Assembly: GCF_002218025.2 (NCBI RefSeq)
Contig: NZ_AP018680.1
Location: forward strand, 1,054,001 to 1,118,000
Source: Vibrio casei
GTDB lineage: Bacteria > Pseudomonadota > Gammaproteobacteria > Enterobacterales > Vibrionaceae
Direction: 5' to 3'
DNA length: 64,000 nt
The notes below the pieces were generated by a model that was not told the origin of the DNA, did not search any database, and saw only the letters and a list, made by a program, of their open reading frames with translations. A program made the position numbers and the translations under genes. Below are positions 20,289 to 51,252 of the stretch, piece after piece; the first letter of the stretch is position 1, and each line of letters begins with the position of its first letter.

Positions 20289-20395
20289 GGAGGCCCTGGT
20301 CCTCCCGCAATACTAGTTCGTGAACTTGGTCAGATCCGGAAGGAAGCAGCCACAGCGAATGACGTGTGTGCCGGGATGTGGCTGGGGCTTCCACC
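20289..20395 (+). ncRNA. ffs: 4.5S / signal recognition particle RNA
   Basis: About 107 nt with the conserved SRP domain IV core GGTCAGATCCGGAAGGAAGC and GTGTGCCGGGATGTGGCTGG. The ends GGAGGCCC and GGGGCTTCC pair. It binds Ffh for cotranslational membrane targeting. The 3' end is the insertion site of the Tn7-like element: the 5-bp duplicated target starts at 20395, so the RNA stays intact and its native downstream sequence now lies at 56205 onward. The 5' and 3' ends are approximate. Confidence 0.95.
20332..20351 (+). other. Protospacer in ffs matching spacer 4
   Basis: This ffs segment matches the first 20 nt of the last CRISPR spacer at 16 of 20 positions. Mismatches are at spacer positions 3, 6, 12 and 18. 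The preceding dinucleotide TC would be the PAM; I-F3 systems tolerate weak PAMs. The first transposon base (20400) lies 48 bp past its end. It is the inferred homing target of the element. Confidence 0.82.
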
Positions 20396-20399
20396 TACC

Positions 20400-20476
20400 T
20401 GATGTTTGAAAAATAAGTCTGCATAAATTGCAAAGAAGTTTGCATATTTGCAGGATAAGTCTGCATAGTCTACTTT
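20400..20476 (+). repeat. Transposon left end with three TnsB-site repeats
   Basis: After the terminal TGATGTTTG, three copies of AAGT(C/T)TGCATA begin at 20415, 20436 and 20457, exactly 21 bp apart. These fit Tn7-type TnsB binding sites. tnsA begins 21 bp later, so its promoter lies within or overlaps the end, allowing TnsB to repress its own operon. Confidence 0.8.
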
Positions 20477-20497: not shown

Positions 20498-21133
20498 ATG
20501 GACTTCGGCATGTTTGATCAAACTAAAAAATCCTCCCACGTTCATAACATCTCAAAATTTATGAGTTTGAAGAACGATGCTGTAGTTCGCACTATGTCGA
20601 TGCTTGAATTCGATATGTGTTTTCATCTTGAATATTCCCCTGAAATTCAAAGCTATACTTCCCAACCTAATGGCTTTTATTACGAATTCAACAATCGTCA
20701 GTGTCGATATACACCTGATTTCAATATTGTTAACTCAAATGGAGATGAGACATTTATTGAAGTCAAGCATTCATCAAAAATCTATGATCCTGACTTCAGA
20801 CGACGTTTCGCTTCCAAACAACAATTCTCGCTTGAGCAACTCAATAAAAAACTCATTTTAATTACTGAAAAGCAAATCCGTATAAACCCTATTTTGAATA
20901 ATCTCAAGTTGTTACATCGTTATTCCGGTTTACAAACGATCTCTGATATTCAATACGCTATTCTTGATGTGGTTCGAAATAGCGAAAGAATACGATTACA
21001 TGACATATCTATGGTTTTAGGAATTACGGAGTCAGAAGCTTTATCTGGCACATTGTCGTGGTTATCCCAAGGGAAAATTCAAGCAGATTTAAAGTCTGGT
21101 GAAATATCGTTAGAAACCCATGTTTGGTGCTAA
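20498..21133 (+). CDS. tnsA: TnsA transposon endonuclease
   Basis: A 211-aa TnsA. The restriction-endonuclease-like core has E in SMLEFD (about residue 38), D in RYTPDF (about 72) and EVK in FIEVKH (about 86). A C-terminal winged-helix region follows. TnsA nicks the 5' transposon ends, so that with TnsB the element moves by cut-and-paste. The stop overlaps the tnsB start in TAATG. The ORF appears intact. Confidence 0.92.
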   Translation: MDFGMFDQTKKSSHVHNISKFMSLKNDAVVRTMSMLEFDMCFHLEYSPEIQSYTSQPNGFYYEFNNRQCRYTPDFNIVNSNGDETFIEVKHSSKIYDPDFRRRFASKQQFSLEQLNKKLILITEKQIRINPILNNLKLLHRYSGLQTISDIQYAILDVVRNSERIRLHDISMVLGITESEALSGTLSWLSQGKIQADLKSGEISLETHVWC

Positions 21134-21962
21134 TGCTTATGGACTTTAATAGTAATGATGGTTTTTTCGATGAATTTAAGTTGGATGAAACTTCAGAGGA
21201 TAGATATGTAGTTGAAAAATCATTAGAAGTAGTTCAGTTTGCTCCTAAAATTTCAATCGATTCTTACCCACTATCTATACAAAATGAGATACAAAAACGC
21301 CTTTCTTATATCCGCTTTGTCAATGCACGGATTAATGGTGGTTGGACTCAAAAAAATTTAACGCCGATATTACGAGAGGCATCGCAAAGTTTGCCTTTAC
21401 CTGCGCCAAAATGGAGAACATTGGTTAATTGGAAAAAAGCTTATTATGAATCAGGAGAGTTAATTCACGCGTTAGTTCCTAGGCATAAAGGTAAGGGTAA
21501 TCGAGAGAAAAAAAATGATTCAGAAAAGTATGTGTTAAAAGCTATTAATGAAAAATACTTAACAAAAGAAAGAGTTAGTGTTTCTGACACTTATGCCTAT
21601 TACAAGTCGCTGGTTATTGTCGCTAATAAATCAATAGTTTCAGGTGGTATTCAACTATTAAGTAAGAGAACGTTCTACAATCGTGTTCAAATGCTTCCTC
21701 CTTATGAAGTTGATGTAGCTCGCTTTGGAAAGCGAATAGCTGATAGAAAGTACCGTTCAGTAGGTCAACAGATACCATGTACGATGCCAATGGAGTATGT
21801 TGAAATAGATCATTCACCGCTTGATGCTATTTTACTTGATGACAAAGGTGACATACCGCTAGGACGGCCTTATTTAACTATTCTTTATGATCGTTTTAGT
21901 AAATGTGTTGTTGGGCTAAGTGTAAACCGGTGTTTGTCAAACTAGTTGTCGCGATCACTACG

Positions 21963-23012
21963 TTATGCACTCTCAGCCTTGACACTATTTTGTTCAGGGT
22001 TTAAGTACACTTCTTTTGGTAAATCCCAATTACGGATATTACCGCTCCAGCGCTCAGGGTGAGCATCTTTAGCACCTTGATAAACTTCTTTTCTATTAGC
22101 CAATATGTCACCCGCTAATCCTGAATGCCTTTGATGTGGGCTGACGTATTTGATGCCACTATGTTTGTGGTTAAAATTATACCAGTGGCTAAATTTCAAC
22201 ACCCAACTACGCGCCTCATCAATTGTTGAAAACCCTTTATACGGATAGTCAGGGCGATATTTACACGTTTTAAATATCGACTCAGCATAAGCATTATCAT
22301 TGCTCACCCTAGGACGATTAAAAGACGACACGACACCTAAACTATAAAGTGTTTCAAGCATTGATGAGCCTTTCATTGGGCTTCCATTATCCGAATGCAG
22401 TACCAGAGGATTATCTTTAACTCCTTCTTTTAAATGAGCTTTCTTAATTAATATTGATGCATTTTCTGCTGATTCGTCATCATGAATTTCCCATCCAACA
22501 ATCTTTCGACTAAATATATCGAGTATCAAATATAAATAAAAATGCAGCCCTTTAGCGGGGCCTGGTAACCAAGTAATATCCCAACACCACACTTGGTTTG
22601 GCCCTGTAGCACAGTGTGTCGTCGGTACTTTTCTCTCTTTTATCTGACTACGTCCGCGAGCGTTTTGCTGTTTTTCTTCATGAAGAACACGATAATATGT
22701 TGATTCAGAAGCAAGATAAATACCCTCATCTGCTAATGTAGGGACGATTTGGCTTGGTGGTAAGCTCTTAAAATCATCGCTATTAACGATGGCTAATATG
22801 TTATCTCTCTCTGCTTTTGATAGCTTATTTTTTGGCTCAGGGCGCTGAGATATTGGTCTACCATCTGTTTTTATGTTCCCGTCAACAGTCCAACGTTGAT
22901 ACGTCCGGACACTGATCCCAAGTTCACGGCAAGCTTTAAACTTTGGCGCACCAGAACTCACAGCTTCATTAACTAGTTTAACTGCTTGAATGCGAGCTGA
23001 GTCGAGGATCAT
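21963..23012 (-). CDS. IS transposase OrfB (rve/DDE integrase), copy 1
   Basis: A 349-aa IS3-type OrfB. An N-terminal helix-turn-helix (ACRELGISVRTYQRW) is followed by an HTH_21-type region and the DDE core: D in VWCWDITWLPG (about 144), D in LVLHSDNGSP (about 208) and E in NAYAESIFKTCKY (about 244). It cuts and joins the insertion sequence ends. Its start overlaps the stop of OrfA by 4 bases, compatible with reinitiation or frameshift coupling. Confidence 0.92.
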   Translation of the reverse strand: MILDSARIQAVKLVNEAVSSGAPKFKACRELGISVRTYQRWTVDGNIKTDGRPISQRPEPKNKLSKAERDNILAIVNSDDFKSLPPSQIVPTLADEGIYLASESTYYRVLHEEKQQNARGRSQIKERKVPTTHCATGPNQVWCWDITWLPGPAKGLHFYLYLILDIFSRKIVGWEIHDDESAENASILIKKAHLKEGVKDNPLVLHSDNGSPMKGSSMLETLYSLGVVSSFNRPRVSNDNAYAESIFKTCKYRPDYPYKGFSTIDEARSWVLKFSHWYNFNHKHSGIKYVSPHQRHSGLAGDILANRKEVYQGAKDAHPERWSGNIRNWDLPKEVYLNPEQNSVKAESA

Positions 23013-23506
23013 TCGTCCTCGGCTTCCCCCCAGATCGCATTTGCTTTTTTTCTTAACACCAATAGTGCTGCGGTTTCAGCGAGTGCCTTATCTTTTCGAC
23101 GTAGCTCCTTTTCTAATTGATTGATCTGTTTTTTATCTTTCTTTGTTTCGGTGGAGAAGGCTTTTTCTTGCTCTTTAACGTTAGCGTTTGCATCTATACA
23201 CGCATTTCGCCAAGCCGATACTTGTTCCACATAAAGACCTTTGCCTCGGCAATATTCCGCTAACTCAGCTTGATTTAAAGAGGCTGTTTCCAACACGACT
23301 GAGAATTTATTTGCTGATGACCACTGCTCAGCATTCTTTCCATCACCTGGCACTAAATGCCCCTTATCAATTGCTTGTTTTCGCCAATTATACAAGGTTG
23401 ATTCACCAATCCCCATCTCGATTGATAATTGGGCTATTGCTATATTATTTGGAGGCATCATCTTCTGAAGAGCCGACTCTTTGCTTTGCGCTGAATAATG
23501 TTTCAT
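23009..23506 (-). CDS. IS transposase OrfA, copy 1
   Basis: A 165-aa first-frame protein. The N-terminal HTH_8-type domain (IAIAQLSIEMGIGESTLYNW) binds the inverted repeats, and a C-terminal lysine/glutamate-rich coiled coil (about residues 110-145) probably mediates multimerisation. It is coupled to OrfB by a 4-base overlap. Confidence 0.9.
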   Translation of the reverse strand: MKHYSAQSKESALQKMMPPNNIAIAQLSIEMGIGESTLYNWRKQAIDKGHLVPGDGKNAEQWSSANKFSVVLETASLNQAELAEYCRGKGLYVEQVSAWRNACIDANANVKEQEKAFSTETKKDKKQINQLEKELRRKDKALAETAALLVLRKKANAIWGEAEDE

Positions 23507-24651
23507 TGTTACTCCACGCCCTCTGTTTAATGGTTGAATATTAAGCGCGACAACTAGTCTGACAGAGAGGGAAACTTCCGTGAGCCAAGCTATAATTCTG
23601 TGCGCAAAGCAATTTTAAACACGGTCCTACAAAAGGATTGGGTAAAAGAAAAATATCCTTGCATAAAAAATGAATGGCCTTGTAGCGGTAAAATCCAAAA
23701 TCTGGTTGTTGATAATGGCGCTGAGTTTTGGAGTAATGATCTTGAAGATGCATTACGCCCATTAGTGTCAAATATTCTTTATACCAAAGCTGGTAATCCT
23801 TGGGAAAAGACCGGTGTAGAGAAGTTTTTCGATAAGTTAAATAATGGTTTAATTAAGAAATTTCCCGGTAAGACCTTTTCACGCACTGAACAATTGAAAG
23901 ACTATAACCCTAAAAGAGATGCGGTGGTGCGGGTTAGTGAGTTTTTAGAACTTTTGCATAAATGGATTATCGATCTCTATCATCAATCTCCAGATGCACG
24001 GGAGACGGGAATACCTGTCCAACGATGGTATGAATCTAAGTTTCGTCCGTCTGAATATAAATCATCAGAAAAAGAACAGCTTAAAATTGAGTTAGGTCCA
24101 GTTCATCATCGAACTATTGGTCTTGGTGGCATTCGTTTATATAACATGAGATATGAATCCAAAGAGTTAATAGAATACCGTAAACAAAATTCATTAGATA
24201 ATTCTGGCAAGCTTTACGTGAAAACTAAAACTGACCCTATGGATTTAAGTTACATATATGTTTATCTGGAAAATGAATTTCGTTATATCAAAGTGCCAGT
24301 TGTTGATAATACAAACTATACCCGTGGCCTAACTTTATTTCAGCATAAAATCGTTGAGAAAGTTCGGCGTTTGAATACACGGTTCAGTGCCGATGAGTTA
24401 AGTTTGGCCGAATCTCGGCTTTATATAGAAGAAAGAATCCAAACAGAAACCAATAGAAGTTCAAATAAAAAAAGGCCCAATGTAAAAGTTGGCAGTACGT
24501 CAAAACTAGCAAAATATCATGAAGTCGGAAGTGATGGACCAACGACAATTATAGCTTCTCAATCAAATTCTCAGCCACCTAAAAGTACTGAGCAGCCTCT
24601 TATAGAGGAAGTGGATTGGGATGATGAATCTGAAGATATCGAGGGCTATTA

Positions 24652-25680
24652 ATGCTAGGACTGACTGAGAAGCAAAAAGCCCAATTGTATAGCTTTAGAA
24701 CTTGCTTCATTGAATACCCTGAAATCACAGAAATTTATAGTATTTTTGATCGTATGCGGTTAAATAAATCGTTAGGAGGTGAGCAAGAATCTCTTTTGTT
24801 GACAGGTGAAACAGGAAGTGGAAAGACAGCATTAATTAATAATTATTTGTCGAAACATCAAACAGTAACAACCTCTACATTTGCATATCAACCTATCTTG
24901 AATACTCGTATTCCGCCAAAAGTAAACGAACTAAGTACAATGCTTCAGCTTCTAAAAGACCTCAATACTCAAACAGGTAGTCGAGCCCAACGTAATCGAA
25001 ATGAGCTAGCGCTAGCTGAGTCAGTTGTAGTTCAGTTAAAGCGAAAAAAAACAGAATTAATTATCTTAAATGAAGTGCAGGAGTTGATAGAGTTTTCATC
25101 AGTCAAAGATCGACAAGCCATAGCAAATACATTGAAATATATCAGTGAAGAAGCACAAGTGTCTTTTGTTCTGGTTGGAATGCCATATTCAGAGCTACTT
25201 GCAGAAGAACCTCAATGGAATTCAAGACTTTCTTGGAGACGAGAGTTACGGTATTTTCAATTAAGTAAAAATAAAGCACATTTCATAAAGGTTATTAAAG
25301 GGTTAGCTAATAGGATGGGTTTTTCAGAACCTCCTGAACTTCATAAAAAAGAGATTGCCATTGCTTTATTTTCGATTTGTAGAGGTGAATTTCGATTACT
25401 CAAACATTTTTTAGAAGATGCAATGCTAACTTGTTTTTTGGCTGGAGGAGCAACGGTGAACTTAGATGTATTAGCCGAAACATATCAATTGAAATATGCA
25501 CAGACAGCATCGAACCTTAACCCATTCTTAAATCCTGAAGGTATCAAAATTTCAGAATTATCGATACCAACAAAGTTCAATCCGTATGCACTAAAGGAAG
25601 AAGATAAAATCATTAGTCGCCGCTTCACGGATGCATTACCGTTGAACCTTTTACTCTCAAAGAGTAGTCTTAAAACGTAA
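24652..25680 (+). CDS. tnsC: TnsC AAA+ transposition regulator
   Basis: A 342-aa AAA+ ATPase. Walker A is GETGSGKTALI (about residue 45). The Walker B strand reads LIILNEVQEL, with Asn where most AAA+ proteins have Asp. Sensor I region is VSFVLVGMPYSELL. TnsC oligomerises on DNA and links TniQ-Cascade target choice to TnsAB. Its start overlaps the tnsB stop (TAATG), so tnsABC form one operon. The protein looks intact and is of normal I-F3 length. Confidence 0.92.
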   Translation: MLGLTEKQKAQLYSFRTCFIEYPEITEIYSIFDRMRLNKSLGGEQESLLLTGETGSGKTALINNYLSKHQTVTTSTFAYQPILNTRIPPKVNELSTMLQLLKDLNTQTGSRAQRNRNELALAESVVVQLKRKKTELIILNEVQELIEFSSVKDRQAIANTLKYISEEAQVSFVLVGMPYSELLAEEPQWNSRLSWRRELRYFQLSKNKAHFIKVIKGLANRMGFSEPPELHKKEIAIALFSICRGEFRLLKHFLEDAMLTCFLAGGATVNLDVLAETYQLKYAQTASNLNPFLNPEGIKISELSIPTKFNPYALKEEDKIISRRFTDALPLNLLLSKSSLKT

Positions 25681-28374: not shown

Positions 28375-28387
28375 TTTTAGGTTGGCA

Positions 28388-29614
28388 ATGAAATTTGAAT
28401 TTACGTATTACCCAGACGAAACGTTCGAAAGTTTTTTACTTCGGTTGTCCCGATATCAAGGCTACGAGCGTTTTTCACATTTCGCGGAAGATATATGGCG
28501 CGACACACTTGGGCAACATGAGGCGATGGCAGGTGCTTTTCCCTTCGAGTTAAGCCGGGTTAACCTATTTCACGCAGAAACAACTAGCCAAATGCGTGTA
28601 AGAGTGTTGATGCACTTAGCCAATCAATTAGAGCTTAAAAGCTTTAGCTTGATGAAAATTGCACTAAGTCATTCCAAGGCAATATTCTCACCCGATTACA
28701 AAGCGGTTTACCGTAATAATATTGATTATCCATTTTCATTTCTAAGAAAAACCTTCACTCCTGTTTGTCCAGAATGCTTAGCAGAGGCGAGTTATATCCG
28801 TCAGCATTGGCAGTTTTTACCTTATCAATCTTGTCATGTTCACCAATGCAAATTATTGCACGATTGCCCTGAGTGTAACTGCCGCATTGGTTATCAATAC
28901 TCTGAAATTATTGACCATTGTGAATGCGGTTATTGTTTCACTGACGCAAAAACAGAACCAGCAAGTGATGCTCAGCAGTCTGTGTCGCAGTGGTTACAAG
29001 TCAGTAGTTCAAACTCAAGCATGACGGAATCACAAGGCTTGTTCAGTTATTCATGTTCTATCTCTGAACGTTATGGGATTTTATTGTGGTACGTGAATCG
29101 ATATGGCGAAGATAAGGATATAAATTTACAGAGTTTTATTGCTTATGCACAACAGTGGCCTCAAAGCTTTTTTTCTGATTTAGATCGTCAATTGGAAAAA
29201 GCGGAACTGGTTCGGGTTAAACCTTGGCATCAAACGTTTTTTAATGAGGCTTTTGGTTCGCTATTAAAAGATTGTCGCAGGCTACCTAATCGTCAAATTG
29301 CTCATAATAAAGTTTTAAGTACGGTTTTAGAGTACATGACAGATCTTGTCATTCGAAATCCTAAAGATAAGAAGTCCAATGTGGGGGATGTTCTATTAAG
29401 CTCTCTAGAGGCGTCTACGTTGCTTTCTTGTACTGTTGATGAAATCTATCGGCTTTATGAGTTTGGTGGAATTAAGGCAGGTGTAAGGCTTAAAATGAGC
29501 AGTAAGTTGGCAAGTCAGCAGTCAGTGTTTACGTTACGAAGTATCGTAGAGTTAAAATTGGCGAAAATGACTTCATCGGTTGATGGCTTAAACTTGTATC
29601 TCCCAGAGTGGTAA
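28388..29614 (+). CDS. tniQ: TniQ (TnsD-like) Cascade-binding target selector
   Basis: A 408-aa TniQ. It begins with the family motif YPDETFESFLLRLSRYQGY and carries zinc ligands in CPECLAEASYIRQHW...CHVHQCKLLHDCPECNC (about residues 128-170), then a helical C-half. A TniQ dimer docks on the Cas6 end of Cascade and recruits TnsC. ATG 28388 is chosen over TTG 28382. It is the first gene of the tniQ-cas operon, 2 bp before cas8/5. Confidence 0.93.
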   Translation: MKFEFTYYPDETFESFLLRLSRYQGYERFSHFAEDIWRDTLGQHEAMAGAFPFELSRVNLFHAETTSQMRVRVLMHLANQLELKSFSLMKIALSHSKAIFSPDYKAVYRNNIDYPFSFLRKTFTPVCPECLAEASYIRQHWQFLPYQSCHVHQCKLLHDCPECNCRIGYQYSEIIDHCECGYCFTDAKTEPASDAQQSVSQWLQVSSSNSSMTESQGLFSYSCSISERYGILLWYVNRYGEDKDINLQSFIAYAQQWPQSFFSDLDRQLEKAELVRVKPWHQTFFNEAFGSLLKDCRRLPNRQIAHNKVLSTVLEYMTDLVIRNPKDKKSNVGDVLLSSLEASTLLSCTVDEIYRLYEFGGIKAGVRLKMSSKLASQQSVFTLRSIVELKLAKMTSSVDGLNLYLPEW

Positions 29615-29616
29615 GG

Positions 29617-31713
29617 ATGGTTAAATTAAAAGACTTAATCAATGAGAAGAATGAAGCTGACCGTCAAATTGTATTGAAGAAAGCCTTCATGCCATATTCT
29701 GAGCTAATAGACGTCGATGGTGATGAGTTTAATGCGTTAACCATTCTATTGAATTTATCGCTCAGCAAACCTGATTGTTCGAATTGGTTAGACTCTGCAA
29801 GAGCGAAAGGTTATCTCATAGATCCTAAGCACATTGATATCATTTGTAATGAAATAAAGTGGCTGCATTCCCATAACCTTAAATTTCCAGATTGCCGGGT
29901 TAAAGACCAGCGTATCATTGCTCATCCTTTACTTTGTGATGCCTCATTTATCTCTAGCGCTTATTTATCTCCGTCACTGGGATGGTCTCATAACTCTGCG
30001 GTGTATAAACACACGGTTTGGCTATTAAGTACCTTTATTTGGCAAGAAGAGATTTGCTGCTTGTTAGATTTGATTCGTAGATCTGAGTCACTATGGTTGA
30101 ATCTTTTAAAACAGTTTGGCCTCAAAGCCGCTTCCTTAAAGCAATTACAACAAGCAATCACTTGTGATTTACCAGAGAAACCTGATTTTCCATCGGAAAT
30201 AGACCGCTTTAGTAAGCAAGTTCGCTTTCCTTGGGAGGGCGATTATTTGTCCATCACACCTGTTGTGAGTCATGCAATTCAACTAGAGATTGAAAGGTTG
30301 GCACGAGATAAAAGTTCGGGGTTAAACTTTACAACTTTGGCTTTTCCTAATTCAGCTAGTATTGGTGATTTATGTGCTTCGGTAGGCGGTAATATGAAAG
30401 CTTTACATTACCCGCTAGGCTTGAATAAAGATCCTAAATCTACTTTCTCTGCTAGTAGAAATAAAACGGGCAAGTGGTTCGATGACTATCAATTAACCAA
30501 TAGAAAATTTTGCAAAGTCTTAAGTCATTTATGCGGTTCTGAGTCATTACATACCGCCAAAAAGCAGCAGAGAGCAAGGCACTTTCAGTTGCGAATAGTA
30601 AGAAAGCAAATTGCGTTATGGTTATTACCGTTGATTGAGTTAAGAGATCACTTAGCTGCTGAAAATGAAGTGTCGCAAGTAAGTGATGATAATTCTGTTA
30701 TAGCAGAGTTTCTTTATGGTGAAGAATGCAAAATCATTAAGCTACTCAATCCATTAAATCAATTATTACAGCAGACCCTTCAAAATAACCAATATTCTAG
30801 TCGTTATGCTTACCATCCGAAGTTGTTAATTCCTCTTAAGCAACAATTACAATGGATTTTAAAGCAATTAAGTAAGCCATCCGTTCCATCAGAGGTGACG
30901 AAAACTCAAGAAAATCAAGAGCAATACATTCATTTAAGTTCGTTGCGAGTAGAGGATGCGAATGCGATGAGTAGCCCATATTTATGCGGATGTTTGTCTT
31001 TAACCGCTATATGGGGTTGTATTCATCATTATCAGAGACAATTTAATCAATCCTTAAATGACTCTGCAGTATTTCAATTTCAAAGCGTGGCTATCTTTTA
31101 TCGTAATGAGAATATCAAGTCATCTGCAAAACTAACGGAGCCTAGTGTACTCAAGGCAAAACGAACCATTTCTCAGGTTAAGAGGTCGACAATTCTTCCT
31201 GCAAGGACGGTGGATTTGGAATTTGATATTGTGATTAAGGTTCAAAGTAAGGGGTGTTTATCCGATTACACCAGACAATTGAAAGCGTCATTACCAAGTT
31301 CACTTGGCGGAGGTTCGCTATTCCAACCGAATCTTCATTCAAAGACTAATTGGCTTGAAACTTATCGTAGTCAAACAGACTTATTTTATCGCATTAAATC
31401 TTTTCCAGCCTTTGGTGCTTGGTTATTCCCTGAAGAGCAGCAACCGACAAGCTTTACCGAATTAACTGAGTTGTTATCAAGCGATGGAGAATTAATTCCA
31501 GTTACCAATGGGTTCCATTTTTTAGAACATCCCGCTGAAAGGATGAACTCGCTGACGGATTTACATGTTTATGCCGAAAATACGACAGGTGTGGCTAAGT
31601 GTGTGAGTGCTATAGATGTGCGTTTTAGTGGCCGGGATCACTTTTTTAAGCAGGCATTTTGGAAGCAAGAAAATAATGAGGCAACTATTCTTATTCAAAA
31701 GGATAAAAACTAG
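29617..31713 (+). CDS. cas8f-cas5f: Cas8/Cas5 fusion, type I-F3
   Basis: A 698-aa fused Cas8-Cas5. The N-half is the Cas8 large-subunit part; the C-half has the Cas5 RAMP-like part with the glycine-rich SSLGGGSLF (about residue 560). It holds the 5' handle of the guide and reads the PAM. A single fused gene, with no cas1 or cas2/3 nearby, is the hallmark of nuclease-free I-F3 transposon systems. ATG 29617 is preferred to the GTG at 29608. Confidence 0.9.
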   Translation: MVKLKDLINEKNEADRQIVLKKAFMPYSELIDVDGDEFNALTILLNLSLSKPDCSNWLDSARAKGYLIDPKHIDIICNEIKWLHSHNLKFPDCRVKDQRIIAHPLLCDASFISSAYLSPSLGWSHNSAVYKHTVWLLSTFIWQEEICCLLDLIRRSESLWLNLLKQFGLKAASLKQLQQAITCDLPEKPDFPSEIDRFSKQVRFPWEGDYLSITPVVSHAIQLEIERLARDKSSGLNFTTLAFPNSASIGDLCASVGGNMKALHYPLGLNKDPKSTFSASRNKTGKWFDDYQLTNRKFCKVLSHLCGSESLHTAKKQQRARHFQLRIVRKQIALWLLPLIELRDHLAAENEVSQVSDDNSVIAEFLYGEECKIIKLLNPLNQLLQQTLQNNQYSSRYAYHPKLLIPLKQQLQWILKQLSKPSVPSEVTKTQENQEQYIHLSSLRVEDANAMSSPYLCGCLSLTAIWGCIHHYQRQFNQSLNDSAVFQFQSVAIFYRNENIKSSAKLTEPSVLKAKRTISQVKRSTILPARTVDLEFDIVIKVQSKGCLSDYTRQLKASLPSSLGGGSLFQPNLHSKTNWLETYRSQTDLFYRIKSFPAFGAWLFPEEQQPTSFTELTELLSSDGELIPVTNGFHFLEHPAERMNSLTDLHVYAENTTGVAKCVSAIDVRFSGRDHFFKQAFWKQENNEATILIQKDKN

Positions 31714-31719: not shown

Positions 31720-32745
31720 ATGAAACTTTGTAAACAATTGAATTATGTTCGCTCTTTAAGTGCGGGTAAAGCGTGTTTTTACTTTGTTGATGCGCAAGAG
31801 AAAATTCAGCCAATCAGCATAGATAGAACACGATTAAGGGCATCTAAAGGCGATTATTCTCAAGCATATACTGGTGAATTGAAACGGAAGAATGTGGCTT
31901 CGTATGAATTAGCACAAGGTAACATCCATTACATTGAAGAATGTTACGTACCACCGACTGTGAATACCATTTACTGTTCATATTCATTGAGAATCAACGC
32001 TAATTCGTTGCAGCCCGAAATATGCTCAGATCCAGAGGTAAGGGCAATGTTAACTCAATTGGCCTCGCTATATGCTGAAAAAGGTGGCTATGAAGAATTA
32101 GCGCAGCGGTATGCAAAAAATATTTTATTAGGGACTTGGTTGTGGCGGAACAGAGCATGCCGATCAGTAAAAATTGAAGTTCTAAACAGTGAACAAGAAA
32201 CGTTTATCATTGAAAATGCGTTGAAGTTGAGTTGGTATGGGCATTGGGATAAGCAGTCACAACAAGCTTTAAAGGGCTTAACCCAATACATCACGAAAGC
32301 GCTTTCAAATAATCAAGATTACTTTTATATGGATATCAAAGCCTCGATGAGTGTTGGTTGGGGGGATGAAATTTATCCAAGCCAAGAATTTCTTGATCAA
32401 AAAGAGAAAGGTAAGCCAACGAAAAAATTGGCAACAACACATCTTCCCAATGGTGATGAAACCGTAGCTTTTCATGGGCAAAAAATTGGTGCGGCTATTC
32501 AGTCTATCGACGATTGGTGGCAGGACAATGCAGATAAGCCACTTCGAGTGAATGAGTACGGTGCGGATAGAGAATATGTCATTGCAAGGCGACATTCGGC
32601 CTTGAATACGGATTTTTACTATTTGGTTAGCCAAGCAGAGCATTGGATTGAAACTTTGCTGAAGTCCGATGATATTCCTGATGAGATGCATTTTATTATG
32701 TCTGTTTTGGTTAAAGGTGGCTTATTTAATAGCGGAAAGGAATAG
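31720..32745 (+). CDS. cas7f: Cas7 (Csy3-like) Cascade backbone
   Basis: A 341-aa Cas7f/Csy3. It has the usual LRASKGDYSQAYTGE opening, the NILLGTWLWRNR block (about residue 130) and a C-terminal thumb region. Copies polymerise along the guide, one per six nucleotides, flipping out every sixth base. It lies 6 bp after cas8/5 and 4 bp before cas6, in one operon. The reading frame appears intact. Confidence 0.93.
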   Translation: MKLCKQLNYVRSLSAGKACFYFVDAQEKIQPISIDRTRLRASKGDYSQAYTGELKRKNVASYELAQGNIHYIEECYVPPTVNTIYCSYSLRINANSLQPEICSDPEVRAMLTQLASLYAEKGGYEELAQRYAKNILLGTWLWRNRACRSVKIEVLNSEQETFIIENALKLSWYGHWDKQSQQALKGLTQYITKALSNNQDYFYMDIKASMSVGWGDEIYPSQEFLDQKEKGKPTKKLATTHLPNGDETVAFHGQKIGAAIQSIDDWWQDNADKPLRVNEYGADREYVIARRHSALNTDFYYLVSQAEHWIETLLKSDDIPDEMHFIMSVLVKGGLFNSGKE

Positions 32746-32749
32746 TTGT

Positions 32750-33361
32750 ATGTCTGGCCGATATTTTTTTGTGGTTAAATTTCTTCCTGATTATGCTGAT
32801 ACCAGTTTGCTATGTGGTCGGTGTATCTCAATCATGCATGGTTTTATCAATAAAAATCCAACGGGAAAGAATGCGGTTGGGGTGAGTTTTCCATTCTGGA
32901 CAGAAGAATCATTGGGTAATGCAATTGCCTTTGTTGCCGAAGATAAAGAGTTGTTGATTGGATTGTCGTTTCAGCCTTATTTTTCACTTATGAAGGAAGA
33001 GGGGTTATTTGAACTTTCAGCTGTATTACCTGTAACTGATGATGCTAAAGAGGTCAGGTTTATACGTAATCAAGCTATTGGTAAAAGCTTCCTAGGTTCA
33101 AAAAGGCGGCGAATGAAACGCGCACAAGATAGGGCTGAAAAGCTCGGAAACATTCAGCCGAATAAAGTTAATGAAGACCGTGTTTTTGATAACTTTCATC
33201 GTATACCACTTTCTAGTCAGTCTACCAATCAAGACATCATGCTTCATGTTCAAAAGGAAGAATGTGTGGATATTAGGCTAAACCACTTTAATTCATACGG
33301 ACTAGCAACGAATCAAGCATGGAAAGGAACAGTGCCTGATCTGAAAAATACCATGTTTTAA
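32750..33361 (+). CDS. cas6f: Cas6f (Csy4-like) guide-RNA endonuclease
   Basis: A 203-aa Cas6f. The likely catalytic histidine is in ISIMHGF (His30, at the place of Csy4 His29). GVSFPFW and the C-terminal YGLATNQAW match the family. The arginine-rich helix SKRRRMKRAQDR binds the repeat stem. It cuts after the stem and stays bound to the 3' hairpin. The start at ATG 32750 follows GGAAAGGA; a longer upstream frame only overlaps cas7 and is not used. Confidence 0.92.
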   Translation: MSGRYFFVVKFLPDYADTSLLCGRCISIMHGFINKNPTGKNAVGVSFPFWTEESLGNAIAFVAEDKELLIGLSFQPYFSLMKEEGLFELSAVLPVTDDAKEVRFIRNQAIGKSFLGSKRRRMKRAQDRAEKLGNIQPNKVNEDRVFDNFHRIPLSSQSTNQDIMLHVQKEECVDIRLNHFNSYGLATNQAWKGTVPDLKNTMF

Positions 33362-33480: not shown

Positions 33481-33726
33481 GTGACCTGCCGAATAGGCAG
33501 CTAGAAAATGACCGCAACCCAGCGGGCGCACAAATGATGAGTGACCTGCCGAATAGGCAGCTAGAAAATCTACTGTAACTTGGGGTAAGACTAACGTAGT
33601 GTGACCTGCCGAATAGGCAGCTAGGAAAGTGGGTTTTGTTGATACCGTTGATAGCTATACGTGACCTGCCGAATAGGCAGTTAAGAAAAGGTCAGGAAGA
33701 AAGCATCCATGCCTGCTGATAAGCAG
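33481..33726 (+). CRISPR. I-F3 array: four 28-bp repeats plus a degenerate terminal repeat
   Basis: Repeats start at 33481, 33541, 33601 and 33661 on a 60-bp period (28 + 32). The stem is CTGCC-GAATA-GGCAG. Repeats 1 and 2 are identical, repeat 3 has one change and repeat 4 ends TTAAGAAA. Spacers 1-3 are 32 nt. After repeat 4 a degenerate repeat with the stem CTGCT-GATA-AGCAG (33713-33726) leaves a spacer of only 19-20 nt (33689-33708), which matches ffs. The array follows cas6 by 119 bp. Confidence 0.93.
33689..33708 (+). other. Short ffs-homing spacer
   Basis: AGGTCAGGAAGAAAGCATCC matches ffs 20332-20351 at 16 of 20 positions. Three of the four mismatches lie at guide positions 6, 12 and 18. 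Counting 20 nt places the insertion 48 bp downstream; counting 32 nt would give 36 bp. Beyond position 21 the match to ffs drops to chance. Confidence 0.8.
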
Positions 33727-33740
33727 TAAAACATATAAGG

Positions 33741-33779
33741 GTAACCCTACTAGGTGTTGATTAGTAGGGTTACTTTTTT
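33741..33779 (+). terminator. Terminator of the array
   Basis: GTAACCCTACTA and TAGTAGGGTTAC make a perfect 12-bp stem with a 9-nt loop, followed by six T. It ends the cas/array transcript. Confidence 0.92.
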
Positions 33780-40239: not shown

Positions 40240-40500
40240 TACCTTGTGAGTGCTTTACGCGAAAGGCGTGAAGGGCTGTGACAGATTGTCAATGCATTTA
40301 TCCTTGCAGAGCCAAGATAAACACATTGTCATGAAGCGTAAGATTACCATTGTATAGTCTCCATCGCAGATTACATTATATATCATTTCTAATAGATCGC
40401 GGCGTGTGCCTTTAGGGGCCAGATGATTGGTTAGGCCAGTTAGTTAAAGCCCAAAGGGATACACGGAAAGGCCGCATGTCCACTCCCTTTGGGTTTTGCT
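40240..40500 (+). ncRNA. Candidate DRT2 template RNA
   Basis: About 260 bp upstream of the reverse transcriptase with no conventional gene. It has a hairpin CTTTACGC/GCGTGAAG (40253-40273) and ends with a perfect 10-bp stem CCCAAAGGGA/TCCCTTTGGG (40450-40493) followed by TTTT. DRT2 systems carry their structured template RNA at just this place. One frame (40250-40352, 103 nt) has no stop, which would suit the endless frame made by template jumping. Ends are guesses. Confidence 0.55.
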
Positions 40501-40520
40501 AGAATAGAATCTCTCTTCTT

Positions 40521-41831
40521 ATGAAAAACACTACTGAGCACCCTTGGTTTACCAAGCGAAACTATCTTCATTTTGATATACCTGTCTCAGTTCATAAGGC
40601 TGAACGAATAGCATCCGACCCAATAACGGTTGCAAGGCATGCCTTTTTTCCTTTCATTTCATATAGTTTCCAGCTTACGAAGTTAGATCGAGATACTTCT
40701 ACTGGTAAGCTATACCGCAAGCCGAAACCAAGAGGTGTTGCCTATTCATCTCATGTAGATAGTCATATCTACGCGTTTTATGCTTCTAAACTATCAACCT
40801 TATACGAAAAGCAAATCAAGAAATTAGGATTGCATGAATCAGTATTAGCTTTCCGTAAATTAGATGGAAAAAGTAATATTCATTTCGCAGATGATGCGTT
40901 TAAGCACATAAGTAAGTTTGAAGATTGCTCTGTTATAGCTTTGGATTTCTCTAAGTTCTTCGACACATTAGACCATCAAATTTTAAAAGAAGAATGGAGG
41001 AAATTACTCGGTGAGGATTACTTGCCAAAAGATCACTACAATGTTTTCCGCTCATTGACCAAATTTTCAACGGTCGATAAATGTGCCCTGTTCGATCTAT
41101 TTGATATCTCTCAATATAACCCTAAAGCTAACGGGCGCAATCGGGTTTGTTCACCTAGTGAATTTAGGCAGAAAGTACGTGCTTCTGGATTGATTAAGAA
41201 AAATCCGAATGGAATGATGGGTATCCCCCAAGGCTCACCGATCAGCGCATTACTTTCTAATATATATATGCTCAATTTTGACGCACAAATGAAGAGCTAT
41301 GTTGACTCTGTTGATGGCAAGTATTTTCGGTATTGTGATGACATGTTGTTTATTGTCCCTTCCAAACATCGAGATATGATAGAGAAACTAGCAAATAGCA
41401 AAGTTACTGCGCTAAAAGTAAAAATTAATAGTGATAAAACAGAGATTAGAGACTTTAGAATTCACGATGGTAAGTTGAGTTCATTTGACGAGCATGGTAA
41501 ACAAAAACCGTTACAGTATTTAGGTTTTTTGTTTGATGGGCATTCGATTTTTTTGCGCTCTACTGCGTTGGCTCGTTATTCTGAAAAAATGAAAGGTGGC
41601 GTAAAACTAGCTAAGAAAACGATGGAAAAAGAAAATCGAATCCGTCGTGAAAAAGGTGAGCCAGAGCAAACATACCTATACAAAAGAAAGCTTCACAAAC
41701 TGTATACAGCACGTGGTCAAAGAAACTTTCTATCGTACGGATATCGAGCAGCCAAAATCATGAACTCAAAGAGCATAAGAAAACAATTAAAACCTCTTTG
41801 GCAACGTTTTCAAGATGAGGTATCTAAATAG
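40521..41831 (+). CDS. drt2: DRT2-type antiviral reverse transcriptase
   Basis: 436 aa. It opens with HPWFTKRNYLHFDIPVS and has RT motifs VIALDFSKFFDTLDH (motif A), MMGIPQGSPISALLSNIYM (motif B) and YFRYCDDMLF (the catalytic YxDD), then LQYLGFLFDG. Layout and length fit DRT2 (UG2), which by rolling reverse transcription of an upstream RNA makes a repeated toxic gene on phage infection. It lacks retron or group II maturase domains. The class is from memory of the family pattern, so moderately sure. Confidence 0.8.
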   Translation: MKNTTEHPWFTKRNYLHFDIPVSVHKAERIASDPITVARHAFFPFISYSFQLTKLDRDTSTGKLYRKPKPRGVAYSSHVDSHIYAFYASKLSTLYEKQIKKLGLHESVLAFRKLDGKSNIHFADDAFKHISKFEDCSVIALDFSKFFDTLDHQILKEEWRKLLGEDYLPKDHYNVFRSLTKFSTVDKCALFDLFDISQYNPKANGRNRVCSPSEFRQKVRASGLIKKNPNGMMGIPQGSPISALLSNIYMLNFDAQMKSYVDSVDGKYFRYCDDMLFIVPSKHRDMIEKLANSKVTALKVKINSDKTEIRDFRIHDGKLSSFDEHGKQKPLQYLGFLFDGHSIFLRSTALARYSEKMKGGVKLAKKTMEKENRIRREKGEPEQTYLYKRKLHKLYTARGQRNFLSYGYRAAKIMNSKSIRKQLKPLWQRFQDEVSK

Positions 41832-42616: not shown

Positions 42617-44320
42617 ATGAAACAAACAGAACAACAGTTTTTGAAAGAGCTTGAAGCTAAGCTATGGAATGCCGCTGATAAACTGCGTTCAACCTTAGAT
42701 GCCGCGCAATATAAACACGCCGTGCTTGGGCTTATCTTCGTCAAATATGTATCGGATGCGTTCACCTTACGCCAAGAAGAAATCAAAGCTGATCTGTCTA
42801 ACCCTGAAAATGAATACTACTTAGACCCAAGCGATTACTCAGCAGAAGAGCTTGCCGAAGAAATTCAAATCGAACTGGAACAACGTGATTACTACACCGA
42901 GAAAAATGTGTTCTGGTTGCCACAAGAATCGCGTTGGCAGTTTTTACAAGATAACGGCCCATTAGTGATTGGTGGTGCTGATCTTCAAGTTGGCGATAAA
43001 ATCAAAAAGATCACCTCAGTCGGTCACTTAATTGATAACGCTTTAGAAGGCATTGAGCGTGATAATCCAAAGCTTAAAGGTGTACTGAACAAATCCTATT
43101 CTGCGCTACGTATCGACCAAGCCAAACTCAATGAGTTGATCAACCTGATCGCGACGATTCCTTTTGATCATGCCTCTCTTAACAGTAAAGACATCTTAGG
43201 CCATGTGTATGAATACATGCTGGGTCAATTTGCGTTAGCAGAAGGCAAAAAAGGCGGTCAGTTCTATACGCCAGCGTCTATCGTAACCTTAATTGTTGAA
43301 ATGATTGAGCCGTTTGAAGGGCGTGTGTATGACCCGGCAATGGGTTCTGGCGGTTTCTTTGTGCAATCGGAAAAATTCATCGAGCGTCATGCCCATGAAA
43401 AGCAAGTCGACCCGTTAACGCAAAAATCACGCATATCGATTTACGGTCAAGAATACAACCACACCACATGGCAGTTAGCGGCAATGAACATGGCGATCCG
43501 TGGTTTGGATTATGACTTCGGCAAAGAGCCAGCCAGCACTTACACCAATGTTCAGCATCCAGAGCTACGTGCTGATTTCATCATGGCAAACCCACCGTTT
43601 AATATGAAAGAGTGGAATACTGGCGTTGATGAAAACGATCCGCGATTTAAATACGGAATGCCTCCGGCAGGCAATGCCAACTTTGCTTGGATGCAACACA
43701 TGCTTCACCACCTTGCACCAGATGGCTCTCAAGCTCTATTACTCGCCAATGGTTCAATGAGTTCAACCACCAATAACGAAGGTGCTATTCGTCAAAAACT
43801 AATAGAAGAAGATTTGATTGAATGCATGGTAGCGCTTCCGGGGCAACTGTTCACCAACACCCAAATCCCAGCTTGTATCTGGTTCTTAACCAAAAATAAA
43901 ACCGCTCGTAATGACAAAGCAGGCCGTAAACTACGCGACCGTAAAGGCGAAGTGCTATTTATTGATGCGCGTAATCTTGGTTATATGAAAGACCGCGTAT
44001 TACGTGATTTCACCATGGACGACATTCAAAAAGTAGCGGATTTATTCCACGCTTGGAAAACCGGTGAAGCGGTCAATGGCGTGACCTATGAAGACCAAGC
44101 CGGTTTCTGTAAATCGGCCAAGTTAGAAGAAATCACCAAGCACGACTTTGTACTCACACCGGGGCGTTATGTAGGCGCGGCGGATGAAGTCGATGACGGA
44201 ATTCCATTTGGTGAAAAAATGGCAACCTTAACGTCGAAATTAAGCGAGCAGTTTGCCGAATCAGCAACGCTAGAAGCTGAGATCAAGAAGAACCTAGTGG
44301 GGATTGGGTATGAAATCTAA
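42617..44320 (+). CDS. hsdM: Type I restriction system DNA methyltransferase
   Basis: 567 aa. An N-terminal HsdM_N helical domain (LEAKLWNAADKLRSTLDA) is followed by an N6-adenine methylase: SAM site DPAMGSGGFF (about 240) and catalytic NPPF in MANPPFNMKEW (about 332). It modifies host recognition sites with HsdS. It overlaps hsdS by 11 bp. The codon use and slightly higher GC differ from the nearby cargo, suggesting separate acquisition. Confidence 0.95.
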   Translation: MKQTEQQFLKELEAKLWNAADKLRSTLDAAQYKHAVLGLIFVKYVSDAFTLRQEEIKADLSNPENEYYLDPSDYSAEELAEEIQIELEQRDYYTEKNVFWLPQESRWQFLQDNGPLVIGGADLQVGDKIKKITSVGHLIDNALEGIERDNPKLKGVLNKSYSALRIDQAKLNELINLIATIPFDHASLNSKDILGHVYEYMLGQFALAEGKKGGQFYTPASIVTLIVEMIEPFEGRVYDPAMGSGGFFVQSEKFIERHAHEKQVDPLTQKSRISIYGQEYNHTTWQLAAMNMAIRGLDYDFGKEPASTYTNVQHPELRADFIMANPPFNMKEWNTGVDENDPRFKYGMPPAGNANFAWMQHMLHHLAPDGSQALLLANGSMSSTTNNEGAIRQKLIEEDLIECMVALPGQLFTNTQIPACIWFLTKNKTARNDKAGRKLRDRKGEVLFIDARNLGYMKDRVLRDFTMDDIQKVADLFHAWKTGEAVNGVTYEDQAGFCKSAKLEEITKHDFVLTPGRYVGAADEVDDGIPFGEKMATLTSKLSEQFAESATLEAEIKKNLVGIGYEI

Positions 44321-45554
44321 CTGGTGTACTGTTAAGTTGCAGGAAATCGTACTATTTAAAACAGGTAAATTAGATTCAAATGCTGCTGATGAACAAGGCG
44401 ACTATCCGTTTTTTACCTGCTCTCCAGTGACCTTAGCTATCAATGAATATGCGTTTGATACCGAAGCTGTTTTGCTTGCAGGTAATAATGCAAATGGTGT
44501 GTTTTCTGTTAAATACTATAACGGAAAATTTAACGCATATCAGCGAACCTATGTGATTACACCAATCGATAAATCTATAGTTAGTGTGAGGTGGCTTTAT
44601 TTCAGAATTAAGCATGTTACGGCTGAACTTCAACAAATGTCGGTAGGAACGGCAACAAAATTTTTGACTAAGAAAATCCTTGATGCTTATGAAGTACAAC
44701 TACCGCCTATAGTTGAACAGGAGAAACAAGCGCAAATATTATGGAATTTACAAAATAAACTTGATTTAAACACCCAAAACAACCAAACCCTAGAACAAAT
44801 GGCACAAGCTATTTTCAAATCATGGTTTGTTGATTTTGAACCCGTCAAAGCTAAAATGCGTGGCGAACAACCCGAAGGAATGGATGAAGCCACTGCCTCG
44901 CTTTTTCCAGAAAAGCTGGTTAGCGATACGGGGTTGCCTGAAGGATGGAAGCTATCAGAAATTGGAGATGAGGTCGCAGTTGTTGGTGGAGGTACACCAT
45001 CTAAGAAGAACGATAATTTCTGGGTTGGTGGGCACATTCATTGGACCTCCCCTAAAGATCTATCGGGTGTTCAAGATAAGGTTCTGTTAGACACTGCCAG
45101 CAAGCTAACGGAAGCTGGCTTGAAGAAAGTTAGCTCTGGTTTATTACCTGTTGATACTGTCCTGTTATCCTCGCGTGCTCCAGTAGGTTATCTTGCCCTT
45201 GCTAAGGTTCCACTTGCTGTAAACCAAGGTTATATCGCAATGAAATGTGAAAAGGCTCTCCCGCCTGAGTTTGTGCTCCAATGGTGTGTTCACCGCATGG
45301 ATGAAATCAAACAACGAGCCAGTGGCAGTACATTTGCCGAGATTAGTAAGAAGAATTTCAAGCCAATTTCTGTTGTGGTTCCAAGTGAGGATGTGCTCAA
45401 TGCTTATCAAAAATTGGTGAAGCCACTCTATGATGCAATTACATCTAATGTCCGCCAAAGTGAACAGCTTTCAACTCTTCGCGATACCTTGCTTCCTAAG
45501 TTACTGTCAGGTGAGCTTCATTTAACTGATCCTGTAGAGGTTACAAATGTCTAA
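44310..45554 (+). CDS. hsdS: Type I restriction specificity subunit
   Basis: 414 aa with two target-recognition domains. TRD1 (about 1-150) is followed by the conserved helical spacer NNQTLEQMAQAIFKSWFVDF; TRD2 (about 205-380) ends in the second helical repeat SEQLSTLRDTLLPKLLSGEL. It sets the recognition sequence for HsdM and HsdR. ATG 44310 is preferred to TTG 44304. The end overlaps the next gene by 8 bp. Confidence 0.93.
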   Translation: MKSNWCTVKLQEIVLFKTGKLDSNAADEQGDYPFFTCSPVTLAINEYAFDTEAVLLAGNNANGVFSVKYYNGKFNAYQRTYVITPIDKSIVSVRWLYFRIKHVTAELQQMSVGTATKFLTKKILDAYEVQLPPIVEQEKQAQILWNLQNKLDLNTQNNQTLEQMAQAIFKSWFVDFEPVKAKMRGEQPEGMDEATASLFPEKLVSDTGLPEGWKLSEIGDEVAVVGGGTPSKKNDNFWVGGHIHWTSPKDLSGVQDKVLLDTASKLTEAGLKKVSSGLLPVDTVLLSSRAPVGYLALAKVPLAVNQGYIAMKCEKALPPEFVLQWCVHRMDEIKQRASGSTFAEISKKNFKPISVVVPSEDVLNAYQKLVKPLYDAITSNVRQSEQLSTLRDTLLPKLLSGELHLTDPVEVTNV

Positions 45555-49809: not shown

Positions 49810-51214
49810 ACAACCTTTCCGGATCGTCGGTAACCTACGTAAATCAGGCCAACTCCAAGAGGCTTGGAGTTACGGTTTTTCCGCATTAGAACAATCCCCA
49901 CAAGATTCATATTTGAAAGGAGCCTTGTTTTGGGTCTGCTATGAATTTATCAAGCAACAGCAAGAGAAGATCGCCAAGCGTGGAGCGTCTTCAAACAACT
50001 ATCGTCCTAGCGATTTTGAGTTTGATAAAATAGAAAGCCTACTGCAAACAATAGTTAATTTTGAGATCCCAGCAGGTGGCTTAGAACACAAAATGTTGCT
50101 GGTTCAGTTTAAAAAGAACCTTGAGTGGTTTCCGACACTGATTCATCTTGTTCTTCGCCAGAAAGCTGCCTTGTTCGATGATGACGCTAAAAAACCATTT
50201 CAAGCTGAAAAGGGTGAAGCACCAAGCTTAATGCTTTCAACGGCACGGCAAGTTGCTAGTGCATGGCTTAGAGCTCGGGAACCTTGGCAGTTAGATTTGA
50301 ATCAAGTGATGGAATTCATCCACCTAACGCGCCAACAAGCATCTGATGTCAAACATATGATTTGGTTGGATTATGATCAGGCAAAATGTCTCATAGTTGC
50401 AGGTCAGTATGAGCAAGCGCGTTCACTTATTTTGCCAATTCTGCGAAAGAAGCAAAAGGAAGCATGGGCTTGGGGGGCTCTGGCCGCGACTTATCAAAAA
50501 CAAAATCGTGACTTGGCAATGAAATTTTTTGCTAAAGGCATCGTGTCTGCGCATGACGTTACTTTTAGCCTGAAGCTTTTTCAGGGGATTATTCCTTTGT
50601 TGCTCGGTAATCAACGGCATGTTGAAGCCTCCATGTGCCTGAAAACTGCTCTTTCGGCATACCAAGCCCATGGCAGGAAGATAAAACCTGAGCTAGAACA
50701 ACTATCTTTGCAACCTTGGTATGACTCTAGTGTTGATGAGAAGCAACTTAATCCTTTTTTAAATTCTATATCTAGAGATGCTCAAGATTACATTTACGGA
50801 CCGACGAAGAAAGTTATCGCTATCATTGAAAACATCCACCGTTCTGGAAAAGGCTTCCATGCTTATGTTACTAGAACATACTCGACTTCTGTTCGTCTCG
50901 GGCTTCATAAAAGCAAAGAGAATCCGAAAGTTGGTGATTATGTAGAATTGACTCTTCGTGAAGAGAATGGTCAAAAGGATGTAGTGTCGTCACTTAGTTG
51001 TGGACCTAAGACATCTTCAGATATTTCTGAAGTCAAAGGGAGAGTAAATATCACCCCTAAAGGCTTTGGGTTTGTAGAGGATACCTACATACCGAGAAAT
51101 CTGGTCGCAGATATGCAGAACGATACTCTTGTGACAGTAACAAGAGTAATGTCATGGGACAAAACTAAATCCAAATACAGTTGGAAGGCAATAAAATTAA
51201 AGCATGAAGCCTAA
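49799..51214 (+). CDS. TPR-like protein with cold-shock-type OB domains
   Basis: 471 aa. Residues 1-300 are helical with TPR-like repeats (GNLRKSGQLQEAWSYGFSAL; AWGALAATYQKQNRDLAMKF). Residues 335-395 and 400-470 resemble cold-shock OB folds (FHAYVTRTYSTSVRLGL; GRVNITPKGFGFVEDTYIP). It should bind nucleic acid. GGAGGG precedes its ATG, inside the end of the NERD-helicase gene, so the two are coupled. No named system was recognised. Confidence 0.72.
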   Translation: MSTEQPFRIVGNLRKSGQLQEAWSYGFSALEQSPQDSYLKGALFWVCYEFIKQQQEKIAKRGASSNNYRPSDFEFDKIESLLQTIVNFEIPAGGLEHKMLLVQFKKNLEWFPTLIHLVLRQKAALFDDDAKKPFQAEKGEAPSLMLSTARQVASAWLRAREPWQLDLNQVMEFIHLTRQQASDVKHMIWLDYDQAKCLIVAGQYEQARSLILPILRKKQKEAWAWGALAATYQKQNRDLAMKFFAKGIVSAHDVTFSLKLFQGIIPLLLGNQRHVEASMCLKTALSAYQAHGRKIKPELEQLSLQPWYDSSVDEKQLNPFLNSISRDAQDYIYGPTKKVIAIIENIHRSGKGFHAYVTRTYSTSVRLGLHKSKENPKVGDYVELTLREENGQKDVVSSLSCGPKTSSDISEVKGRVNITPKGFGFVEDTYIPRNLVADMQNDTLVTVTRVMSWDKTKSKYSWKAIKLKHEA

Positions 51215-51224
51215 AATTAATAAT

Positions 51225-51252
51225 AAATTGCTTTCCGGCGAAATCGAGTTAG
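51225..51252 (+). repeat. hsdS 3'-tail copy 2
   Basis: The same 28 bp as at 46844 with one T-to-C difference, again coding KLLSGEIEL, just after the TPR/OB gene and before hsdR. Confidence 0.8.

Follow-up and report, generated by a model that had tools for sequence, protein, structure and literature searches.

In the parts of the I-F3 CAST literature on which we draw here, models tie the licensing of transposition to base pairing at the distal end of a 32-nt guide (PMC12774636, PMC13345079, PMC10188703). Mismatches at guide positions 25–29 are reported to abolish I-F3 transposition, with pairing at 25–29 and 31–32 needed and mismatches at 13–17 and 19–23 tolerated (PMC12774636), and the insertion distance is described as the sum of the guide, TniQ, TnsC, and TnsB footprints (PMC13345079). 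By a review's account, spacers shortened in the model system had little or no effect (PMC12774636, PMC13345079, PMC10188703), which we understand to mean that transposition was slight or absent; short guides therefore do not appear to be tolerated by the model I-F3a system. The I-F3b att sites and atypical crRNAs are named in the portion of PMC11406308 consulted here.

Shortened guides are described elsewhere. According to the sections of the I-F1 study used here, the number N of Cas7 subunits in type I-F follows from spacer length L as L = 6N − 4, so that 20 nt corresponds to four subunits and 32 nt to six, and I-F1 Cascades carrying a spacer shortened by 12 nt assemble, bind, and form R-loops while Cas2/3 is not triggered (PMC7296934). 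These engineered complexes resemble the arrangement proposed below in that a 20-nt spacer goes with four Cas7 subunits and an R-loop still forms, and differ from it in being laboratory-made and concerned with interference rather than transposition. Type V-K CASTs, as far as the consulted parts of the sources describe them, also dedicate a shortened guide to homing, in the form of a truncated, delocalised crRNA (PMC11406308, PMC12719977); unlike the elements considered here, they use a Cas12k effector, mostly target tRNA genes, and have no Cascade and therefore no Cas7 counting. Our search of the literature, which took in sources in part and the main paper on I-F3 guide categories not at all, turned up no natural 20-nt guide described for an I-F CAST, and a natural short homing guide in I-F3 CASTs is new as far as we have checked, with a prior description possible. 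Petassi 2020 is said to be the key paper on these guide categories, and Klompe 2019 reportedly contains a length series for Tn6677.

The closest described arrangement is the I-F3b element of pS44-1 from Aeromonas salmonicida S44 (which we take to be AsCAST), in which the TnsA, TnsB, TnsC, TniQ, Csy3, and Cas6f genes stand in the same order as in the element reported here and an ffs-type homing guide likewise precedes an atypical last repeat. The ffs guide of pS44-1 is 32 nt long, with the next repeat 60 bp on, whereas that of our element is ~20 nt; the full-length pS44-1 guide may be why the short class went unnoticed. Our main reading, to which we assign a probability of roughly 85%, is that the last guide of the array is ~20 nt long and ends in its own repeat-derived hairpin, likely working in a shortened Cascade, with four Cas7 subunits rather than six, which would bring insertion 12 bp nearer the PAM.

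A CAST beside ffs with a short terminal guide unit

The window analysed here, 64,000 nucleotides of the Vibrio casei contig NZ_AP018680.1, contains a CAST of 35,805 bp (20400–56204, plus strand, both ends present) that starts 9 bp past the end of its attachment gene ffs (4.5S/small SRP RNA; 20294–20390, plus strand; Rfam RF00169, 70 bits). The ends of the element match and are flanked by perfectly matching plus-strand copies, read directly from the sequence, of the 5-bp target-site duplication (TSD) CTACC (left, 20395–20399; right, 56205–56209); the left end carries three TnsB-site-like repeats with a period of 21 (20402–20467) and the right end (56187–56204, minus strand) reads TGATGTTTGCAATATAAA. 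All transposition and Cascade genes lie on the plus strand: tnsA (20498–21133; Pfam PF08722), the 5′ part of tnsB (21124–21945; matching the N-terminal part of TnsB, PDB 30jv / 9y7b) and its 3′ part (23600–24652; PF09299; matching the C-terminal part, PDB 30ga / 9y7b), tnsC (24652–25680; PF05621 TniB), tniQ (28382–29614; PF06527; best solved relative 7u5d TniQ), the cas8/5 fusion (29608–31713; 7u5d Cas8/5, E 2.5e-118), cas7 (csy3; 31720–32745; PF09615; 7u5d Cas7, E 5.4e-96), and cas6 (csy4; 32669–33361; PF09618). Because an IS3-family element (21928–23571, minus strand) interrupts tnsB, this copy of the CAST is probably immobile, and because that element and a second copy at 57854–59497 share all 1644 bp (100% identity), the inactivation was probably recent.

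The TniQ of the window matches 7u5d at E 7.5e-91 and the 6lnb/6v9p set, which we take to represent Tn6677 of type I-F3a, at E 1.1e-36, placing it nearer the I-F3b than the I-F3a machinery. In a structure comparison of these proteins, 7u5d, identified as the A. salmonicida TniQ-Cascade in the consulted part of PMC12774636, was the nearest solved structure for TniQ, Cas7, and Cas8/5, and PseTnsAB for both TnsB parts. The element thus unites tnsA, a split tnsB, tnsC, tniQ, and cas8/5-cas7-cas6 with a 5-bp TSD and Tn7-like ends adjoining an att site, as in I-F3 CASTs; as in I-F3b, an array-terminal guide with an atypical repeat matches the ffs att site, and insertion, 48 bp past the end of a 20-nt protospacer, falls in the ~48–50 bp range of that type. 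The homing spacer is 19–20 nt rather than the 32 nt (six Cas7) of I-F3b and, because the other I-F3b features are present, we treat the element, as judged from its sequence, as a variant within I-F3b. A type V-K assignment was rejected, the effector genes being cas8/5, cas7, and cas6 with no Cas12k and the guide array-terminal rather than delocalised; so was a type I-F1 CRISPR-Cas system, the Cas2/3 nuclease (TIGR02562) having no match in the window's genome, an absence that agrees with an I-F3 CAST. All 25 named relatives of the element are Vibrio or Vibrionales records, the nearest being from V. rumoiensis (TniQ identity 92%). Elsewhere in the window, an RT-12 RNA and, after it, a Drt2-type reverse transcriptase (40390–41831) are likely cargo that the transposon carries for defence, type I restriction-modification genes (hsdM, hsdS, hsdR; 42617–45554 and 47068–54690) surround a PDC-M16A/B pair with TOTE-type domains, and three tandem tRNA-Tyr genes occupy 11497–11973.

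The array (plus strand throughout) consists of three 28-nt repeats (starting at 33481, 33541, and 33601), each with a 32-nt spacer and hence a period of 60 (33481–33660), followed by a fourth 28-nt repeat (33661–33688), whose last 8 nt (33681–33688) would, on the model of type I-F crRNA, form the 5′ handle of the homing guide. The homing spacer that comes next (33689–33708) is 20 nt by the 6N − 4 rule and 19 nt by strict repeat alignment, in which 5 nt are set aside before the stem as in a normal repeat; the repeat-derived hairpin CTGCT-GATA-AGCAG, a predicted Cas6 site, stands at 33713–33726, separated from repeat 4 by 24 nt, and an intrinsic terminator (fold and T-run; 33737–33777) lies directly 3′ of the unit. 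The degenerate repeat with an intact 5-bp stem 19–20 nt past repeat 4, which a sequence-only reading of this DNA had pointed out, is therefore present as described. That reading had also put the shortening at exactly 12 nt; from repeat end to hairpin end, the unit measures 38 nt against a canonical 52 nt and is thus 14 nt shorter. The motif CTGC[TC]N4-5[AG]GCAG occurs at five sites in the 64-kb window, namely the four repeats and the terminal hairpin, and because it is restricted to these, the terminal hairpin is, on sequence grounds, a derivative of the repeat and not a chance structure. Folded alone, the guide RNA retains three of the five hairpin pairs in its minimum-energy structure because spacer bases compete.

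In ffs, the guide faces a TC PAM (20330–20331, plus strand, read from sequence) and a 20-nt protospacer (20332–20351, plus strand) that it matches at 16 of 20 positions, with mismatches at 3, 6, 12, and 18. Extended by a base, the match is 17 of the first 21 positions and then collapses, in agreement with the earlier reading, and the transposon start at 20400 lies 68 bp from protospacer base 1, or 48 bp past a 20-nt and 36 bp past a 32-nt protospacer, as that reading had reckoned (48–49 bp for 19–20 nt, 36 bp for 32 nt).

Guide length, target match, and insertion distance among relatives

To place this unit among its relatives, an alignment of eight TniQ proteins was searched against 329 Vibrionaceae genomes (79 matched) and 394 genomes across the order (20 matched, partly the same genomes); we counted the 76 genomes with a TniQ match of 1e-78 or better (64 from the family search and 12 from the order search) and left out the weaker ones (4.5e-47 or worse). 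Arrays could be read in 74 of the 76, those of G333 and G274 being cut by contig ends. The survey of other ffs-inserted I-F3 elements that the sequence-only reading had proposed bears out its expectation of a shared shortening: a short ffs guide closes 52 of the 74 arrays and a full-length one another 11, and in the other 11 no ffs guide could be read (G176, G257, and G322, which have a second target, and G348, G160, G125, G090, G466, G623, G504, and G494). A guide but no ffs was read for G195 and G426, ffs is cut by a contig end in G233, and G141 and G142, which have ffs with a long-type end, stand outside the guide counts. Besides the genus of the window, four further genus labels (g26, g33, g46, g61) include genomes with the short unit. 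Eleven plasmid records had a match, and among the five examined, one carries a short ffs guide, three a full-length guide, and one a guide to another target; the short-guide plasmid (pTHAF190c_c, L303) looks as if ready to home after transfer. Cas2/3 (TIGR02562) was detected in three of 60 searched CAST genomes (G203, G220, G102), all of the short class and too few for a claim.

Full-length ffs CASTs (e.g. G080, G111, G493) share with the short class the target gene, the protospacer start, and a mismatch at most sixth positions, and differ from it in guide unit and insertion distance. From repeat end to hairpin end, the unit measures 38, 39, or 40 nt in the short class (n = 52) and 51–54 nt in the long class (n = 11), around the canonical 52; the distribution is bimodal with no intermediate, and the commonest short unit, 38 nt, is 14 and not 12 nt under canonical (G063, G068, and G102 of the short class and G357 of the long were measured by eye, and G426 was not scored). 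All 51 short arrays scanned have a repeat-like hairpin (50 by script, G167 by eye), which in G063 and G068 is weaker, with four pairs. Pairing is kept in 99.5% of the 205 hairpin cells of 41 distinct short units. At one of the pairs, U-A stands in 36 rows and C-G in the five others, which all have CCGCC...GGCGG in the normal repeat and may reflect a single shared event; covariation is weak, the observed number of cells with a double change being reached in 0 of 500 shuffles and that of pairs with a double change in 285 of 500. No further 5-bp GC-rich stem with a 4–5 nt loop was found downstream in any of 50 short arrays within the range searched. Over that range, a full-length guide with a later hairpin was thus rejected as a candidate, the next feature in the window being the terminator; a guide of ~60 nt ending at a downstream hairpin, which the earlier reading had named as one result that would overturn it, finds no support. 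In G102 (L135, L261) the short unit follows an apparent second, decayed short unit, as in tandem short guides; given these apparent tandem copies, the short unit may act as an independent repeat-spacer unit. The homing guides of five arrays (L022–L026) from a more distant TniQ group, which by resemblance we take to be I-F3a, have a terminal hairpin of another kind, unlike their array repeats, and a separate repeat-like unit further on.

Guide and ffs could be compared in 58 elements (48 of 52 short, G282, G233, G195, and G102 falling outside, and 10 of 11 long), which reduce to 41 distinct short and 10 distinct long pairs. The protospacer starts at the same base in all 58, with a TC PAM in 55 and CC in three; a TC PAM is given for 96.6% of ffs CASTs in the part of PMC12774636 that we used. 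Outside the sixth positions, positions 1–20 match at 0.95 in the short and 0.89 in the long class (41 and 10 distinct pairs), whereas positions 21–32 match at 0.76 in the long class and at 0.27 in the short, close to the 0.25 expected by chance; the match ends after position 20 in the short class only. At positions 6, 12, 18, and 24, the match is 0.00–0.02 in the 41 short and 0.00–0.20 in the 10 long pairs, below the chance value of 0.25 in counts uncorrected for kinship, and mismatch at these flipped-out positions may be preferred beyond being tolerated. Five elements (L228 in G003, L244 in G080, L155 in G084, L154 in G091, L153 in G082) hold a second ffs-like copy between array and right end that mismatches its own guide outside the sixth positions as well, as if shielded from it.

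Offsets were counted from protospacer base 1 to the first transposon base, with transposon ends called by a motif list drawn up after sight of the sequences. An ffs locus was available for 51 short elements. The transposon end can be read in 50 of these, at an offset of 68–75 bp (68–72 in 49), and is unreadable in one; common ends give 68 (n = 34) or 69 (n = 5), and TGTCGC-type ends 69–72 (n = 10) or 75 (n = 1). In the long class, all 10 elements with ffs read have offsets of 79–83 bp, with no overlap, and the central prediction of the sequence-only reading, that the insertion distance counts from where a short guide ends, agrees with this separation (68–75, n = 50, versus 79–83, n = 10). Counted past the protospacer end, the two classes come together, at 48–49 bp for common short ends (20-nt protospacer) and 47–51 bp for long (32-nt protospacer). 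Within each class, the offset is nearly constant over 1–3 nt of unit length (38–40 nt, 68–69 for common ends; 51–54 nt, 79–83), so that it takes two levels ~12 bp apart, a pattern expected if Cas7 subunits are added or removed whole.

In 46 of 50 short and nine of 10 long elements, ffs and TniQ share a contig and are no more than 50 kb apart; in four short and one long (G387) they are on different contigs. G208, whose TniQ orientation is opposite to ffs, was kept in the counts. A TSD backs 23 offsets: 10 short with common ends (68–69), five short with TGTCGC-type ends (69–75), seven long (79–81), and G176 (83). Part of this support comes from terminal matches with three mismatches in nine (e.g. 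G004, G031, G082, G173); the TSDs of G173, G407, G371, and G091 come from a second search only, which also replaced a weak first match for G084. No TSD was found for G203, G034, G164, G260, G130, and G322 (six of 20 in one search) or, in another, for G357. The CAST of the short-class genome G102, at offset 75 with TSD CTGGC, lies outside the tight range and is inserted a few bases from the apparent end of an older long-class element in the same ffs.

Lineage and rival readings

One fully supported branch of a 70-row TniQ tree separates short from long ffs guides, with the bootstrap unsettled and long branches flagged, and transposon end sequences differ between the two sides as well; judged from this tree, the ffs contrast is one evolutionary split. 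Because the split is single and the ends differ, other lineage traits could contribute to the offset. A further comparison comes from inside the short clade, where G176, G257, and G322 have another target, presumably, as judged by eye, the 3′ end of an AraC-like gene; G176 and G257 carry full-length guides and G322 a 42-nt unit. G176 (unit 52 nt, TGTCGC-type end, TSD GCGTT) has an offset of 83 and G322 (unit 42 nt, TGTCGC-type end, no TSD found) an offset of 69; beside the element of G257, no matching target was found. The shift expected by the earlier reading thus recurs at a second target, in two elements. Because G176 (83) stands against G322 (69) and the short ffs elements (69–75) of the same end type, guide length, beyond lineage or end type, appears to go with insertion distance, with two elements as the control.

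These observations also bear on the strongest rival, that the guide is truly at least 32 nt, with the terminator or trimming fixing its 3′ end, and that the short class inserts 12 bp nearer through a smaller TniQ/TnsC/TnsB footprint. Given the single TniQ-tree branch and the differing ends, a lineage-wide change of transpososome geometry might mimic the shift, yet G176, inside the short clade and with a full-length guide, inserts at 83 with a TSD while short-guide elements of the same end type insert at 69–75. A 32-nt reading of the short guides should moreover fail, because mismatches at 25–29 abolish I-F3 transposition: short-class matching past position 20 is near chance, whereas pairing at 25–29 and 31–32 is reported as needed in the consulted part of PMC12774636, and none of the 50 short arrays offers a further Cas6-like stem in the range searched. 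We regard this rival as improbable.

Lower still do we rate the idea that the short unit is a decayed remnant kept by hitchhiking, with homing left to another guide or a TnsD-like protein. The interrupted tnsB of the window, of which the earlier reading says nothing, and the other homing guides of some clade members (G176, G257) would fit it; a remnant would drift, however, and positions 1–20 outside the sixth positions match at 0.95 over 41 distinct pairs, the hairpin is kept, and 50 readable elements insert at a near-fixed distance from exactly this protospacer. Nothing spoke for an assembly artefact or for a hairpin arising by chance beside the last repeat; recurrence and motif count refute both and leave them next to no probability: 52 of 74 arrays, drawn from many genomes, have the unit, as does the plasmid record pTHAF190c_c, and the motif occurs elsewhere in the window only at the four repeats.

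A proposed shortened homing Cascade and its implications

Under our main reading of a ~20-nt terminal guide, Cas6 would cut after the terminal hairpin to yield a crRNA of ~46 nt, and this guide would load a Cascade with, from the published relation L = 6N − 4, four Cas7 subunits, at the end of which TniQ, TnsC, and TnsAB would dock; the 32-nt spacers of this array would direct the same Cascade machinery to other targets. Variation of 1–3 nt in unit length would be absorbed as slack before the hairpin, keeping whole subunits. Since insertion distance is a sum of footprints, the loss of two Cas7 subunits should shift insertion by 12 bp, as is seen. Licensing would follow 20 bp of pairing, and the checkpoint places in short guides would correspond to positions 13–17 and 19–20. 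At these positions, short guides match at 0.71–1.00, and long guides at 0.80–1.00 except for position 13, at 0.10; the expected contrast between short and long guides thus appears at position 13 only.

It is possible that a short guide homes to a chromosomal gene without provoking cutting by a resident I-F1 system, by analogy with the truncated I-F1 R-loops that left Cas2/3 untriggered. The full proposal, which we advance tentatively and at slightly less than even odds, is that one lineage of I-F3b has a natural four-Cas7 homing Cascade in which a 20-bp R-loop would license transposition, the checkpoint would lie 12 nt earlier, the shift would be exactly that of two Cas7 subunits, and the guide would be inherently safe, since an I-F1 system borrowing it would bind and be unable to fire Cas2/3.

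A large natural group of I-F3 elements thus likely homes with 20 nt, unlike the published far-end licensing of a 32-nt guide. Two guide lengths that start at the same base of the same gene, with insertion ~12 bp apart, amount to a natural test of the Cascade-length ruler and of the licensing checkpoint. An I-F targeting complex with a short guide would also be smaller, and such guides suggest a route by which a mobile element may target its host's chromosome without exposing the host to a resident nuclease.
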